64,000 nucleotides of DNA, taken from contig JAEUSY010000015.1 in assembly GCA_016788295.1 (NCBI GenBank), positions 1-64,000 of the forward strand, written 5' to 3'. Below, piece by piece: positions 25,310-60,290 of the stretch. The stretch comes from Flavobacteriales bacterium. Lineage in GTDB: Bacteria; Bacteroidota; Bacteroidia; Flavobacteriales_F; PHOS-HE28. Within the stretch, counting starts at the first letter, position 1, and each line of letters begins with the position of its first letter. The translations under genes and the position numbers were made by a program. The notes under the pieces were generated by a model. It did no database searches and was not told the DNA's origin. It was given only the letters and a program-made list of their open reading frames with translations.

Positions 25310-25885
25310 TCAACGCTGAGCCGCTTTCCATTGGCCGTGCCAACGCCTTAGTGCCGATGCCGAGATCACCACGTACACCATGTACAGCCCGGCATACCAA
25401 TACATGCCCAGCAGCATGTAAAGCACGATGGCCACCGCATCGGCCACGATCCAGTAGGCCCAGTTCTCCAACACCTTGCGCGCCAACATCCACGTGGCCA
25501 ATAAGCTGAAGGCCGTGGCGAAGCCGTCCAAGCCTGTATAACGCGCATCGGGTAGGAGCTTCAGCAGCAGTGCACCCGCAATAGCGAGCGCTCCACCACC
25601 AACAATGATCACGAGATGGAAACGTGTGCTCCGGCGGTTGATGGCCAGTTCGCCCTTCCCCTCGTTGCCCCACGACCACCAACCGTAGACGCCCATGATC
25701 ACATAGTAGGCGCTCAATCCCACTTGGGCATACACGTGCTGGTGCATGAACAAGGCCACGCCCATGGCCGAAGCGGCAATGCCGAACAGCCAGCCCACAC
25801 GCTTCTCGTACAGCATGAGCACGGTATAGGCCAGATTGCCAACGGCGGCCACCGCCTCAAGCACCTGCCAGGGGTCCACGGTCAT
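25310..25885 (-). CDS. pnuC: Nicotinamide riboside transporter PnuC
   Basis: 191 residues from the ATG at 25885, an integral membrane protein with about seven helices. Family features: LEAVAAVGNLAYTVLMLYEKRVGWLFGI, YAQVGLSAYYVIMGVYGWWSWG, GLDGFATAFSLLATWMLARKVLENW and WIVADAVAIVLYMLLGMYWYAGLY. It imports nicotinamide riboside for NAD salvage, to be phosphorylated by a NadR-type kinase such as that at 18597. The paralogue PnuT carries thiamine, but no TPP riboswitch is seen upstream here, so PnuC is preferred. It is divergent from the secreted protein at 25973. Confidence 0.9.
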   Translation of the reverse strand: MTVDPWQVLEAVAAVGNLAYTVLMLYEKRVGWLFGIAASAMGVALFMHQHVYAQVGLSAYYVIMGVYGWWSWGNEGKGELAINRRSTRFHLVIIVGGGALAIAGALLLKLLPDARYTGLDGFATAFSLLATWMLARKVLENWAYWIVADAVAIVLYMLLGMYWYAGLYMVYVVISASALRRWHGQWKAAQR

Positions 25886-52844: not shown

Positions 52845-52963
52845 GTGTTATTGAACGCGAAAGGTACCTGAACAGCGCTCTGCAAAAGTTGAGAAATGAC
52901 AGTTCCAGGGCTGATCCGTTGGTCGCCGGTACCGCATCTTCGCCGCCCGAAAGAACGAGGAGC

Positions 52964-54961
52964 ATGCATGACCATTTCCGTAGATCGTTGAGCTGTGTCT
53001 TGTTGGGCTTGCCCATAATGGCTATTGCACAGGAACAAGTGGCCACAGGTCCCAAGCTGGACACACTGCATGTCACCGCCACCCGGATCACCAGTCCGTT
53101 GCCCCGCACGGCCCGCCACCTGCAGGTGCTGGACTCTGCCCAGTTGCAGGGCGCACCTCGTCCAGAGGTGAGCGAGCTGTTGCGCACGGCCACTCTTGTT
53201 GATGTTCGCCAACGGGGTCCTTTCGATGCGCAGACCGATCTGGGCATTCGCGGGGGCACCTTCGACCAGGCCTTGGTGCTGGTGGACGGCATACCCATGA
53301 CCGACCCGCAGACCGGTCACCACCTGATGAACCTGCCCCTGCTCTCCGATGCCTTGGAGCGCGTGGAAGTGCTGTACGGAGGCGCCGCGCGCACCTTCGG
53401 CGCGGGTGCCATGACCGGGGCCATCAACCTGGTCACGCGCGAGCCGGTGGGCCGGGGTGGCAGTTTCCAAGTGGACGGAGGGCAATACGGTTCGTACTTG
53501 TTGCGGGCCTCGCAGGACCTTGCAGGGCCTCGTGGTGGCATACGGCTCACCGCGTTCCACGGCCGCACCGACGGCTATGTACCGAACAGCGACATGGACC
53601 GTACGGGCGGCCATTTGGTGGGCGTGCATCGCATGGGCCGCGTGAAGTTGAAGGGCCAACTGGGCGGCGTACATCGCCGCTTCGGTGCGCAGAACTTCTA
53701 CTCGTCGGTCTATCCCGATCAGCAGGAGATCATCGGCAGCTATTTCGGTGCGTTGGAATTGCGCAACGATGATGCGCTGTGGGCCTGGAACGTGAAGGCC
53801 TATCACCGTCGCCATGACGATCAGTTCCAGCTTTTCCGCGAGAGCGATGACTATTACCGTTACGCTGATGGGTACTTCATTCGCGGCGAAGCGGATACCG
53901 CACGGTTCACGCCGACCTTCTTCTACACCTTCCACAACCGCCACCGCACCGATGTCACCGGAGCGGAGGCGAACGTGAAGCGCCGCTGGAAGGCGGGCAC
54001 CACGGCCTTCGGCGCGCACGCCCGTAGGGAGCATATTTTCAGCAACGTGCTGGGCGAGCCGATGGATGAGCCACGGGAGGCCGCCGGCGCGCGTGAGGCC
54101 TTCACCCGGAGCGATGCGCGCTACAACCTGGCCATGCACCTGGATCACCGCGCGGAGCTGGGTCGTTGGGGAATTGATGCGGGCCTCTTGCTCAACGTGA
54201 ACGACCGCTTCGTGCCCGAGTGGATCCCCGGAGTGGATCTGCACTATCGTTGGGGCAAAGGGCACGTGACCTACGGCAGCGCGGGACGTGCGTTCCGTTT
54301 CCCGACCTGGACCGACCTGTACTACAGTCGTGGAGGTGCACAAGGCAGCAAGGACCTGCGCACCGAACATGCCGTACAGATGGAGCTCGGGCATCGCTTC
54401 ACTGCCGATTCCTGGAGCACGGTGCTGTGCGTTTGGCGCCGCGAAGGCAGCGACCTCATCGATTGGGTGCGCCTGCCGGGCGATGCTGTTACACGTGCCA
54501 CCAACCTCACGGAGGTGGACCTCAACGGTGTGGAGCTTCAGGTGGACCGGCGCACGGCCAACGGCAAAGGTCGTGGTGGTGTGCTCTATGCCTACCAGTG
54601 GTCCGATCAGCAGGAGTTCCCGTTCACTTCGCTCTATGTGCTCGATCATCTGGAGCACAACGCGGTGTTCTGGTGGCAGCAGCGTGTGGCCGGCCGCTGG
54701 ATGTTACGATCTGACCTGTCTTGGCGCACACGGTACAGCACCTACGTGGACTTCGCGGATGGCCAGCGCGTGGAATACCCTTCGCCGCTGCGGATCGATG
54801 TGCGTGTCGACCGCACTTTCGGACCTGTTACGCTGCATGTGGGCTGCACCAACCTGCTGGACGCCGAACAAGTGGACCGTGGCAATGTGCCGCTCCCTGG
54901 GCGCTGGTTCACCGGAGGCGTGCGTGTGGAGTGGGGGAGCAGGGGCAGGCAGGGTTCTTAG
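52964..54961 (+). CDS. TonB-dependent outer-membrane receptor
   Basis: 665 residues from the ATG at 52964 (signal peptide SLSCVLLGLPIMAIAQ). Short form without an N-terminal carboxypeptidase-like domain. TonB-box-like region DTLHVTATRI, plug domain (about 40-150: VDVRQRGPFDAQTDLGIRGG, FDQALVLVDGIPMTDPQTGH, VEVLYGGAARTFGAGAMTGA), then a barrel whose last strands include VTLHVGCTNLLDAEQVDRG and FTGGVRVEWG. The size and plug resemble BtuB- or siderophore-type receptors; no riboswitch was seen upstream, so the substrate is open. Not closely linked to a periplasmic binding protein. Confidence 0.92.
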   Translation: MHDHFRRSLSCVLLGLPIMAIAQEQVATGPKLDTLHVTATRITSPLPRTARHLQVLDSAQLQGAPRPEVSELLRTATLVDVRQRGPFDAQTDLGIRGGTFDQALVLVDGIPMTDPQTGHHLMNLPLLSDALERVEVLYGGAARTFGAGAMTGAINLVTREPVGRGGSFQVDGGQYGSYLLRASQDLAGPRGGIRLTAFHGRTDGYVPNSDMDRTGGHLVGVHRMGRVKLKGQLGGVHRRFGAQNFYSSVYPDQQEIIGSYFGALELRNDDALWAWNVKAYHRRHDDQFQLFRESDDYYRYADGYFIRGEADTARFTPTFFYTFHNRHRTDVTGAEANVKRRWKAGTTAFGAHARREHIFSNVLGEPMDEPREAAGAREAFTRSDARYNLAMHLDHRAELGRWGIDAGLLLNVNDRFVPEWIPGVDLHYRWGKGHVTYGSAGRAFRFPTWTDLYYSRGGAQGSKDLRTEHAVQMELGHRFTADSWSTVLCVWRREGSDLIDWVRLPGDAVTRATNLTEVDLNGVELQVDRRTANGKGRGGVLYAYQWSDQQEFPFTSLYVLDHLEHNAVFWWQQRVAGRWMLRSDLSWRTRYSTYVDFADGQRVEYPSPLRIDVRVDRTFGPVTLHVGCTNLLDAEQVDRGNVPLPGRWFTGGVRVEWGSRGRQGS

Positions 54962-57734: not shown

Positions 57735-57742
57735 TAGCTTTG
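57735..57742 (+). promoter_or_regulatory. -7 promoter element of the TPP-riboswitch transcript
   Basis: TAGCTTTG is an exact match to the Bacteroidota TAnnTTTG consensus. It sits so that transcription would begin about 57748, just where the riboswitch aptamer begins. A -33 TTTG at the expected distance is not clear. Confidence 0.55.
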
Positions 57743-57750
57743 CATCGTCG

Positions 57751-57830
57751 CACACTGGGGTGCCCTCCGATAGGCGGGCTGAGATCATACCCATCGAACC
57801 TGCGCAGGTAATGCTGCGAAGGGAGCAGAC
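57751..57830 (+). promoter_or_regulatory. TPP riboswitch (THI element)
   Basis: The conserved blocks appear in order: GGGGTGCCC (57757-57765), GGGCTGAGATCATACCC (57776-57792), GAACCTG (57796-57802), CAGGTAATGCTGCGAAGGGA (57805-57824). These are the pyrimidine-binding CTGAGA and the diphosphate-binding GCGAAGGGA parts of the thiamine pyrophosphate aptamer. It lies in the leader of a TonB receptor gene and should reduce expression when TPP is plentiful. Confidence 0.93.
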
Positions 57831-57852
57831 CAAGGCCACCACTGCGGTGCAC

Positions 57853-57887
57853 CTCCGTGAAGCGACCAACGAACACGGAGCATCATG
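57853..57887 (+). promoter_or_regulatory. Sequestering hairpin over the Shine-Dalgarno of the TPP-regulated receptor gene
   Basis: CTCCGTG (57853-57859) is an exact complement of CACGGAG (57874-57880). The latter contains a GGAG Shine-Dalgarno four bases before the ATG at 57885. The 7-base-pair stem with 14-base loop would hide the ribosome site. This points to translational control as the riboswitch expression platform. Confidence 0.6.
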
Positions 57888-60290
57888 TACCATCGTATCG
57901 CCTTATTCGTCGGCCTCCTGCTGCCGACCACTCTTCTTTCACAGGTGCGCCTCACCGGCACCGTTACTGCTGCCGATGCCGGCCCGCTCGACGCCGTGAG
58001 CGTGGTGGCAGGGGAGGACCAACGCTTCGGCACGTGGACCGATCGCGAGGGACGCTTCGCACTTGCCGGTCTGCGCCAAGGCCCACTGCGGCTGCGCCTC
58101 TCGTACGTGGGCTACCACCCGGTGGATACCCTGCTGGAACTTACCAACGACCACTTGGACGTTAAGCTGGTGATGCGCCCACAGGCCGTGCTGATGCGCG
58201 AGGCCGAAGTGAGCGCCCTGCGCGCCGGTGAACGTGCGCCCTTCGCCCAGAGCAAGGTGACGCGTGAAGAGATCGAACGCATCAATACCGGCGTGGACCT
58301 GCCCATTCTGCTCGATCTGCAGCCCAGTGTGGTCACCACCACCGATGCGGGCACGGGCATCGGCTACACCGGTCTGCGCATCCGGGGTAGTGATGCCACA
58401 CGCATCAACGTCACACTGAACGGTGTGCCCATCAACGATCCCGAGAGCCAGGCCGTGTTCTGGGTGAACATGCCCGATCTAGCCAGTGGCCTCGAGGATA
58501 TTGAAGTGCAGCGTGGCGTGGGCACCAGCACCAATGGCCCCGGTGCGTTCGGTGCTAGCATCAACATGCGCAGTGCCACCATTCGAGAAAAGGCGTTCGG
58601 CGAGCTCGGTGTCTTCACAGGCTCTTACAACACGCAGCGGCAATACGTACGCTTCGGCACCGGACTGCTGGGTGTGGGTGATGGTGGCAAGCTGGGTTCC
58701 TTCAGCATCGATGGCCGCCTGAGCAACATCACCAGCGATGGCTATATCGACCGCGCCACGGCCGATCTGAAGAGTTATCAATTGCAGGCCGCTTGGTTGG
58801 GGCGCACACGATCACTGCGCTTTTTCACCATGAGCGGGCACGAGGTCACCTACCAGGCCTGGGAAGGTGTGCCGCGTGAGGTCATCGACACCAACCGCAC
58901 CTACAATCCGTACACCTACGACAACCAAGTGGACGACTACCGCCAGACACACTACCAACTGCTCTTCGATCAGCAGGTGGGCGCGCACGGCACCTTCAAC
59001 CTCACGTTGTTCCGAGTGCTGGGCAGTGGGTTCTTTGAGCAGTATCGCGACAATGATGATCTACAGCGTTATGGCATCGGACCCATAGCTGTTGGCGATA
59101 CCGTGATCACGGAAGGCGACGTCATCCGTCGACGTTGGTTGGATAACACCATGGATGGCGTGAATGCCACCTACCAGCAGAACATCGGGGCGCATCGGTT
59201 GGCCATCGGCGGTAGCTACAGCAAGTACGACGGCGATCACTTCGGTGAGGTCATCTGGGCACAGTGGGCCGGTGACAGCCCGATCCGGCAGCGCTACTAC
59301 GACAACAAGGGCACCAAAACGGATGCGAACGCTTTCGCCAAGTTCACCTATGTGATCAATGATCGTGTCGATCTCTTCGGCGATGCACAGGTGCGTTCCG
59401 TCGCGCATGAGTTCCTCGGGTATAACAACGCGTTGGAGAATGTGACACAGGAGGCCTCGTGGACCTTCTTCAATCCCAAGGCAGGCGCGCAATGGAAGGT
59501 GCATGAAGGTGGTCGACTCTATGCCAGTGTCGCTCTTGCGAACCGGGAGCCCAACCGTAGCGATCTGATCGAGAGCAGCCCGCAAAGCCGTCCACGACCC
59601 GAACGCATGATCGACTACGAGCTGGGTTACGAGCGGCGCAGTGGACGCCTCGCATTCGGTATCAACGGCTACTACATGGACTACACGGACCAGTTGGTGC
59701 TTACCGGTGAGCTGAACGATGTGGGCTATGCATTGCGCACCAACGTGGCCAGCAGCTACAGGGCAGGGGTGGAGCTAACTGGCGCGGTGCAGTTCGCCAA
59801 GCGGTTCACCTGGCGCCCCAATGCCACCTTCAGCAGCAACCGCATCACCGCCTTCACCGAATACGTGGACGATTGGGACAACGGCGGTCAACAGTCCAAC
59901 GCATTGGGCACAACGGACATCGCCTTTTCACCGAGCATTATTGCGGGCAGTGAGCTGATCTGCCGGTTCTGGGAGCGCGCTGAACGCGGCCATGCGGAGA
60001 TCGCGCTGGTCACCAAGTATGTCGGCGAGCAATACTTGGACAACACATCAAGCACCGATCGTATGCTCGACGCCTATGTGGTGAACGACCTGCGCCTGAA
60101 CGTGACGTTGCTGGGAAAGGGTGCCCGCTCACTGGGGCTCAACCTCACCGTGCGCAACCTCTTCAGCGAGCTGTACGAGAACAATGGCTGGGTGTACAGC
60201 TATGTCTTCGATGGCCGTCGCCAGGACCTGGTCGCGCTGTTCCCGCAGGCGCCGTTGAACGTACTGGGCGGTGTGGTACTGCGGTTCTGA
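57885..60290 (+). CDS. TonB-dependent receptor under TPP control (probable thiamine or precursor uptake)
   Basis: 801 residues. Signal peptide (IALFVGLLLPTTLLSQ), carboxypeptidase-regulatory-like domain (about 18-105: VRLTGTVTAADAGPLDAVSV, FALAGLRQGPLRLRLSYVGY), plug domain (about 120-240: INTGVDLPILLDLQPSVVTT, TGLRIRGSDATRINVTLNGV, IEVQRGVGTSTNGPGAFGAS) and a 22-stranded-barrel-sized C-terminal part ending PQAPLNVLGGVVLRF. The TPP riboswitch and start-site hairpin just upstream imply that it brings thiamine or a thiamine precursor across the outer membrane. No thi biosynthetic gene or PnuT follows in the window. Confidence 0.93.
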   Translation: MYHRIALFVGLLLPTTLLSQVRLTGTVTAADAGPLDAVSVVAGEDQRFGTWTDREGRFALAGLRQGPLRLRLSYVGYHPVDTLLELTNDHLDVKLVMRPQAVLMREAEVSALRAGERAPFAQSKVTREEIERINTGVDLPILLDLQPSVVTTTDAGTGIGYTGLRIRGSDATRINVTLNGVPINDPESQAVFWVNMPDLASGLEDIEVQRGVGTSTNGPGAFGASINMRSATIREKAFGELGVFTGSYNTQRQYVRFGTGLLGVGDGGKLGSFSIDGRLSNITSDGYIDRATADLKSYQLQAAWLGRTRSLRFFTMSGHEVTYQAWEGVPREVIDTNRTYNPYTYDNQVDDYRQTHYQLLFDQQVGAHGTFNLTLFRVLGSGFFEQYRDNDDLQRYGIGPIAVGDTVITEGDVIRRRWLDNTMDGVNATYQQNIGAHRLAIGGSYSKYDGDHFGEVIWAQWAGDSPIRQRYYDNKGTKTDANAFAKFTYVINDRVDLFGDAQVRSVAHEFLGYNNALENVTQEASWTFFNPKAGAQWKVHEGGRLYASVALANREPNRSDLIESSPQSRPRPERMIDYELGYERRSGRLAFGINGYYMDYTDQLVLTGELNDVGYALRTNVASSYRAGVELTGAVQFAKRFTWRPNATFSSNRITAFTEYVDDWDNGGQQSNALGTTDIAFSPSIIAGSELICRFWERAERGHAEIALVTKYVGEQYLDNTSSTDRMLDAYVVNDLRLNVTLLGKGARSLGLNLTVRNLFSELYENNGWVYSYVFDGRRQDLVALFPQAPLNVLGGVVLRF

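Follow-up and report, generated by a model that had tools for sequence, protein, structure and literature searches.

The leader of a Flavobacteriales TonB-dependent receptor gene looks like a conserved thiamine-type riboswitch with a rebuilt phosphate-binding pocket and closing helix

Introduction

What does the leader of a TonB-dependent receptor gene in a Flavobacteriales bacterium sense, and by which rearrangement could it act on the gene? The gene lies on contig JAEUSY010000015.1 of assembly GCA_016788295.1, of which positions 1-64,000 of the forward strand were analyzed (in the following, the window). An initial annotation of this DNA described a complete TPP riboswitch whose mechanism could be read directly from a hairpin covering the Shine-Dalgarno (SD) sequence. 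We compared the leader across a set of 118 genomes, consisting of its own, 44 of the same genus and 73 of the same class. Based on these sequences, we propose that the leader is a ligand-OFF translational riboswitch for a TonB receptor that imports thiamine, with an aptamer of the TPP type that lacks a standard P1 helix and in which J4/5 is closed into a helix; we put the probability of this reading at roughly 0.6.

Results

The receptor and its genomic context

The features of the locus are compiled in Table 1. The -7 promoter box TANNTTTG noted previously is present at 57735-57742; the consensus used (TAnnTTTG; PMC7366714) has two matches in the 64 kb of the window versus 8.9 expected by chance, and a TANNTTY box occurs a little upstream of the aptamer in all 37 genus leaders. 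Judging from this box, transcription is predicted to start at about position 57745.

The product of the receptor gene matches the TonB barrel, plug and CarboxypepD_reg domains, which, together with the RF00059 match described below, bears out the annotation of a TonB receptor gene behind a riboswitch of the thiamine type. That the substrate is probably thiamine was likewise backed by orthologs: in two genomes (G115 and G075), the receptor gene, a gene for a PnuC-family transporter and one for thiamine pyrophosphokinase (TPK) are contiguous, with a THI element in front. From this context, the receptor likely imports thiamine. PnuC-family and TPK genes are unlinked to the receptor in this genome. 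Its sole PnuC/PnuT-family match, about 32 kb away from the receptor, shares 33% identity over 153 residues with the protein encoded beside the G115 receptor, and none of the genome's RF00059 matches lies upstream of it. Searches of all 45 genomes of the genus, this one among them, yielded no thiC, thiE or PF04263 TPK (present in 27, 36 and 14 of the 118 genomes overall, respectively), and a TIGR01378 TPK was absent from the five genus genomes tested; many genomes of the set are incomplete, which limits how such absences are to be read. The pattern fits a genus of thiamine auxotrophs but does not account for the missing kinase, for which two TPK families were searched.

Table 1. Positions of the leader elements and of the associated genes within the window.
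Feature	Position	Strand	Basis
PnuC-family inner-membrane transporter, candidate thiamine permease	25337-25864	-	family match
-7 promoter box TAGCTTTG (TAnnTTTG)	57735-57742	+	1 of 2 window matches
5' tail; antisequestor strand (H1), possible toehold	57747-57755	+	pairing analysis
TPP-like aptamer core P2-P3-P4-P5, T-loop CUGAGA, P1 unformed	57756-57824	+	RF00059 match and leader comparison
GGGGUGC; P2/P3 5' strand (aptamer) or H2 with 57849-57855 (putative ligand-free state)	57757-57763	+	covariation
Closed J4/5, 5' side (positions 61-62)	57803-57804	+	strand comparison
Closed J4/5, 3' side (positions 77-78); pairs with 57804 and 57803	57817-57818	+	strand comparison
Hairpin X between aptamer and platform; 3' strand overlaps H2	57835-57850	+	halves covary
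GCACCUC; H2 antisequestor partner of 57757-57763	57849-57855	+	covariation
CUCCGUG; 5' arm of the start-region sequestor (H3)	57853-57859	+	covariation
GCGAC in the sequestor loop; H1 partner of the 5' tail	57862-57866	+	covariation
CACGGAG; sequestor 3' arm, 5-11 nt upstream of the start codon	57874-57880	+	pairing
TonB-dependent receptor, predicted thiamine (OMthi-like) importer	57885-60290	+	domains, ortholog context

The leader is a variant of the RF00059 family without a detectable P1 helix

A covariance-model search with Infernal matched the Rfam THI model (RF00059) to positions 57746-57841 (+) with 40.4 bits (E 1.3e-6). A match to the family was thereby recovered; nothing in the window reached the gathering level of 54.3 bits, and the element is not the full THI aptamer that had been annotated, as both P1 and J4/5 are altered in addition to the low score. 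It is the single credible THI element of this genome (next-best match 14.1 bits, E 8). Across the set, RF00059 matches (E ≤0.01) occurred in 106 of the 118 genomes and receptor orthologs (E ≤1e-50) in 89. All 37 copies of the genus, own included, missed the gathering score (30.9-48.3 bits), and all 37 adjoin the receptor, counted by position only. Among the eight genus genomes without a THI match, four (G003, G007, G014, G033) also gave no receptor match, and in the other four (G012, G021, G036, G043) the receptor is present as a piece or contig-end copy only.

Removal of one duplicate left 36 unique genus leaders, across which 45 columns are invariant; the pyrimidine pocket is kept, with the GGGGTG, CTGAGA and ACCC columns identical in 36/36. 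P1, in contrast, is non-standard at four of its five pairs in this leader. The genus leaders form on average 1.42 of five P1 pairs compared to 1.45 after permutation of the partners. At least four pairs form in one of the 36 leaders versus 28 of the 30 top-scoring class relatives (mean 4.7), a choice of relatives that exaggerates the contrast because only 36 of 112 unique elements with canonical J4/5 (see below) reach that number. With a fixed anchor, these 112 elements average 2.86 pairs (2.18 permuted; 0/2000 as high), and the 72 of them that precede the receptor average 2.58 (2.10 permuted). The 40 others average 3.35, and loss of P1 may therefore accompany receptor control more widely. Elements outside the genus with a J4/5 of 5/5 nt gave 2.11 versus 1.82 permuted at the fixed anchor (73/2000), and fell to the permutation level once one base of slip was permitted. 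By this comparison, many receptor leaders have a weak P1, and in this genus the helix cannot be detected.

The leader shares with RF00059 the P2-P3 arm, the T-loop CUGAGA, the GAACCUG, L5 UAAU and AGGGA motifs, and the thiamine-gene context. It departs from the family in its score, in P1 and in J4/5, whose strands are of 5/5 nt and complementary to each other where the family has 6/6 nt with an A.G opposition. Given these departures and the agreement in T-loop and context, we classed it as an RF00059 variant.

J4/5 is closed by covarying pairs, apparently in more than one lineage

In canonical elements, P4 and the L5 loop are separated by a J4/5 of 6/6 nt. We refer to its positions 61-62 and 77-78 by the thiM numbering, mapped by eye. 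In the 112 unique canonical elements, 61:78 is A.G in 109 and C-G in three, and 62:77 is complementary in none. In this leader, each side is one base shorter and the strands are self-complementary; all 37 genus copies have 5/5 nt and are complementary at both positions. Closure extends beyond the genus: 27 unique non-genus 5/5 elements are complementary at 61:78 in 26 cases, at 62:77 in 23 and at both in 22. Counted over the 21 distinct types of J4/5 strands, those of the genus among them, complementarity holds at 39 of 42 positions, as opposed to 19.3 (sd 3.0) after permutation (0/5000 as high). Parsing left out 15 of 173 loci with strands of unequal length, and three loci complementary at both positions (L108, L134, L142) are absent from the later parsing owing to a P5 mismatch.

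With a pattern that did not demand complementarity, matches were obtained in 39 of 395 class genomes, including 14 genomes of the genus. Among the 25 non-genus matches, 20 are complementary at both positions, those in G094 and G148 have one mismatch each, and three are without P5 and look random. The canonical pattern occurred in 102 of the 395 class genomes and in none of the 16 genus genomes within that set. On a quick tree of 55 receptors, the closed form calls for six changes, at least four of which fall on well-supported branches; J4/5 closure, found in several Bacteroidota lineages, apparently arose more than once. Three Bacteroidales elements (L138, L144, L157) have a 5/5-nt J4/5 that is partly open, with CA opposite CG, and possibly represent an intermediate between the canonical and the closed form.

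All 22 unique closed elements examined outside the genus precede the receptor, 21 of them by tblastn and one (G104) as seen in a longer locus. Loci that had been fetched by receptor similarity cannot be counted for gene context, and pattern-found loci were used instead: here the receptor lies downstream in 14 of 14 closed non-genus loci compared to 19 of 29 canonical ones, with six more closed pattern matches that have no locus standing outside this count. Both forms coexist in one genome (G107): the element located some 0.8 kb from thiC is canonical and scores 74.4 bits, and the one that precedes the receptor is closed. The one-mismatch element of G148 (L243), with a J4/5 of 5/5 nt, precedes an ORF that by eye resembles a THI4-like thiazole synthase, not a receptor.

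These observations bear on the ligand. According to published structures, the pyrophosphate or its metal is contacted by C77 and G78 (PMC7824784, PMC3764141), both of which are listed as highly conserved in TPP riboswitches (PMC3764141). Because of the rebuilt diphosphate-sensing loop, less confidence can be placed in TPP as the specific ligand than the initial annotation assumed: the leader may respond to TPP or a less phosphorylated thiamine, and we give TPP itself a little better than even odds. A possible minority reading is an aptamer blind to the diphosphate that would sense thiamine or thiamine monophosphate. It is consistent with the replacement of the contacting positions by covarying pairs next to a pyrimidine pocket that is invariant in the genus, and with the receptor following all 22 closed elements examined outside the genus while the element near thiC in G107 is canonical. 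However, the letters C77-G78 persist in 22 of the 37 genus copies, Mg-TPP could be bound even by a paired loop, the receptor follows canonical elements too (72 of 112), and with no TPK family found in the genus the fate of the imported vitamin is clouded. We put forward only tentatively that the receptor leaders with closed J4/5 in several Bacteroidota lineages might form a variant riboswitch class within the TPP family that senses thiamine or thiamine monophosphate, not TPP.

A conserved antisequestor may link the aptamer to the start region

The 7-bp hairpin 57853-57859/57874-57880 (H3) was found exactly as initially annotated. The mechanism can nevertheless not be read from this hairpin directly, since an antisequestor had been overlooked: the 5'-terminal ~20 nt of the leader can pair with 57849-57866. 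This pairing consists of H1 (57747-57751, GUCGC, with 57862-57866, GCGAC, followed by 57753-57755, CAC, with 57857-57859, GUG) and H2. The antisequestor overlaps both aptamer and sequestor; by their predicted pairing, which covariation supports, the two folds are mutually exclusive.

Across the 36 unique genus leaders, each helix was more stable with its own than with swapped partners, in permutations that ignore the kinship of the leaders: H1 gave -8.00 versus -6.39 (sd 0.29) kcal/mol, H2 -17.6 versus -16.7 (sd 0.23) and H3 -14.6 versus -12.4 (sd 0.31), each with 0/5000 permutations as extreme (outer H2, 3/5000). The halves of hairpin X covary as well (0/5000); at -4.4 kcal/mol (z 0.4), the copy in this leader is a weak one. 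The five core pairs of H3 form in 32-34 of 34 leaders (L041 and L063 left out) and the two loop-side pairs in 24 and 26. The first three H2 pairs form in all of 35 leaders (L063 left out), and position 4 is unpaired in 14 of these. H1 is more variable. Its position 3 is U-A in 13, G-C in 11, A-U in two and C-G in one of the 36 leaders and unpaired in nine, and positions 3-7 are unpaired in 9-17. On a tree of 28 receptors, pair types changed at least five, three, three and one times at H1 positions 3, 4, 5 and 7, counting paired leaders only (7-12 of the 28, unpaired at positions 3-7, were left out). In the leaders of two sister receptors (L035 and L036), both H1 strands differ together. When the candidate partners for H1 are ranked, just 19 of the 36 leaders have their own loop in the top quarter. 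Two leaders deviate: the platform of L063 is rearranged, and L066 shows no H3 in the model.

Folding energies speak neither for nor against the switch. The unconstrained fold of this leader is no more stable than those of shuffled sequences (z -0.33), so the evidence is comparative and not thermodynamic. The ensemble energies with H2 and H3 are 0.3 kcal/mol apart in this leader (-57.6 versus -57.9), and forcing the aptamer gives H3. In the genus, forcing it moves H3 by more than 0.3 in only 15 of 36 leaders and lowers the predicted mean accessibility of the start region slightly, from 0.39 to 0.34; many leaders form H3 in both states. As 300 platform-swapped pairs responded about like the own platforms and clear switches were few, these energies do not test the switch model.

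Starting from the helices and the two aptamer changes, which emerge from the comparison of the leaders, we infer the direction of switching, a toehold role for the 5' tail, translational control and a thiamine-type ligand. In the ligand-free state, the first ~20 nt (5' tail 57747-57755 and 57757-57763) would pair with 57849-57866 (H1+H2); with the aptamer thus blocked and the 5' arm of the sequestor occupied, we propose that the start region is accessible and that the receptor is produced. Upon ligand binding, P2/P3 would retake GGGGUGC, and the released arm 57853-57859 would pair with 57874-57880 (H3), such that the initiation region would be occluded by structure and not through hiding of an SD sequence. 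Loss of P1 would leave the 5' tail free; through H1, the tail may then serve as a toehold for the displacement of P2/P3 by H2.

A different role for H1, which we regard as rather unlikely, would be as a substitute for P1. With ligand bound, the 5' tail would pair with the sequestor loop and form a pseudoknot that clamps H3, similar to cobalamin riboswitches. The 3' strand of H1 sits within the H3 loop, H1 (57747-57751/57862-57866) and H3 do not overlap in this leader, and several loop nucleotides, judged by eye, remain for the crossing. Against this, H1 and H2 are in register and together form a single long helix with interruptions, and 14 of 33 leaders (L041, L063 and L064 left out) have H1 and H3 competing for shared loop nucleotides.

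The hairpin most likely occludes the start region as structure

According to the initial annotation, the hairpin covers the SD sequence. A GGAG is truly present in its arm; SD motifs, however, were not enriched in the part of the genome that was sampled, the window and 12 further stretches. Of the 65 ORFs taken from these, this receptor included, none had GGAGG at -20 to -4 (one in the upstream control, one inside genes), and six had GGAG, GAGG or AGGA (10 and six, respectively); starts in this count were set mechanically and spurious ORFs may be included. The 16S tails of three genus mates (L182, L183, L184) read AUCUCCUUU, with the anti-SD core UCUCC and not CCUCC in 3/3; searches of the own assembly and of another mate (G041) returned no 16S. 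Ribosomes of Bacteroidia fail at SD recognition, and mRNA structure tunes initiation (PMC9976891, PMC6847099); in Flavobacteriales, SD control was suggested to be limited to rpsU (PMC9976891). The missing enrichment, the UCUCC tails and these published data make it most likely that the hairpin acts by structural occlusion of the initiation region. SD sequestration as such was rejected on the counts and the tails; GGAG would be conserved as a pairing arm, with an SD role unlikely.

The same data weigh on the unlikely reading that this is an ordinary TPP riboswitch with an SD-sequestering hairpin, its oddities being neutral drift. The RF00059 match, the GGAG directly ahead of the ATG and the textbook logic of sequestors (PMC2258182) would suit it, and many canonical Bacteroidota elements likewise have a weak P1. 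Drift, however, would not account for the covariation of J4/5, genus P1 is at the permutation level, and the SD counts, the 16S tails and the suggested restriction of SD control to rpsU (PMC9976891) speak against SD hiding. That the leader is a non-functional remnant or a transcription terminator is very improbable: the sub-threshold score, the unremarkable fold energy and a terminator-like hairpin with a T-rich tail at 57909-57928 (+) inside the receptor gene (one found, 0.3 expected, so close to chance) could be cited in its favor, but the invariant columns and the covariation of four helices stand against decay, and no terminator-like site was found at H3, in line with the translational platform that had been annotated.

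Discussion

The receptor leader has a counterpart in OMthi (BT2390) of Bacteroides thetaiotaomicron, a thiamine receptor of the TonB type that is regulated by a TPP riboswitch (PMC5613172), and in some relatives related receptors go with PnuC-family and TPK genes. OMthi mRNA was not significantly changed by thiamine (PMC5613172), which by analogy would suit translational control. The systems differ in J4/5, which is canonical in the Bacteroides receptor leader compared here (L154), and in that the present leader has an antisequestor, whereas the accessible text of the OMthi study describes none (PMC5613172). With the antisequestor/sequestor platforms of Barrick and Breaker (2007; PMC2258182), the proposed switch shares two mutually exclusive folds and OFF logic. 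Most riboswitches switch through P1 (PMC2258182); here, the P2/P3 5' strand and the transcript 5' end would do so, and SD pairing is unlikely to matter. The pairing of a strand with a loop outside the aptamer core recalls the pseudoknot of cobalamin riboswitches (PMC2258182), a resemblance only, as aptamer and strand differ.

If the ligand is indeed altered, import would answer to the vitamin itself and biosynthesis, as at the thiC-side element of G107, to the coenzyme. The recurrent, covarying loss of a diphosphate-contact loop at one kind of gene resembles the way in which altered-specificity riboswitches of other classes have been recognized. A TPP riboswitch with closed J4/5 or without P1 was not mentioned in the titles and abstract openings searched, where subscription journals are thinly covered.

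Two minor observations concern the receptor genes. In five genus genomes (L051, L052, L053, L054, L069), extra DNA that appears repeat-like by eye lies between the ATG of the switch and the start of receptor homology. In the window, a second TonB-dependent receptor gene (52889-54958, +) is located about 3 kb upstream of the first, with neither a CarboxypepD_reg match nor a THI element.
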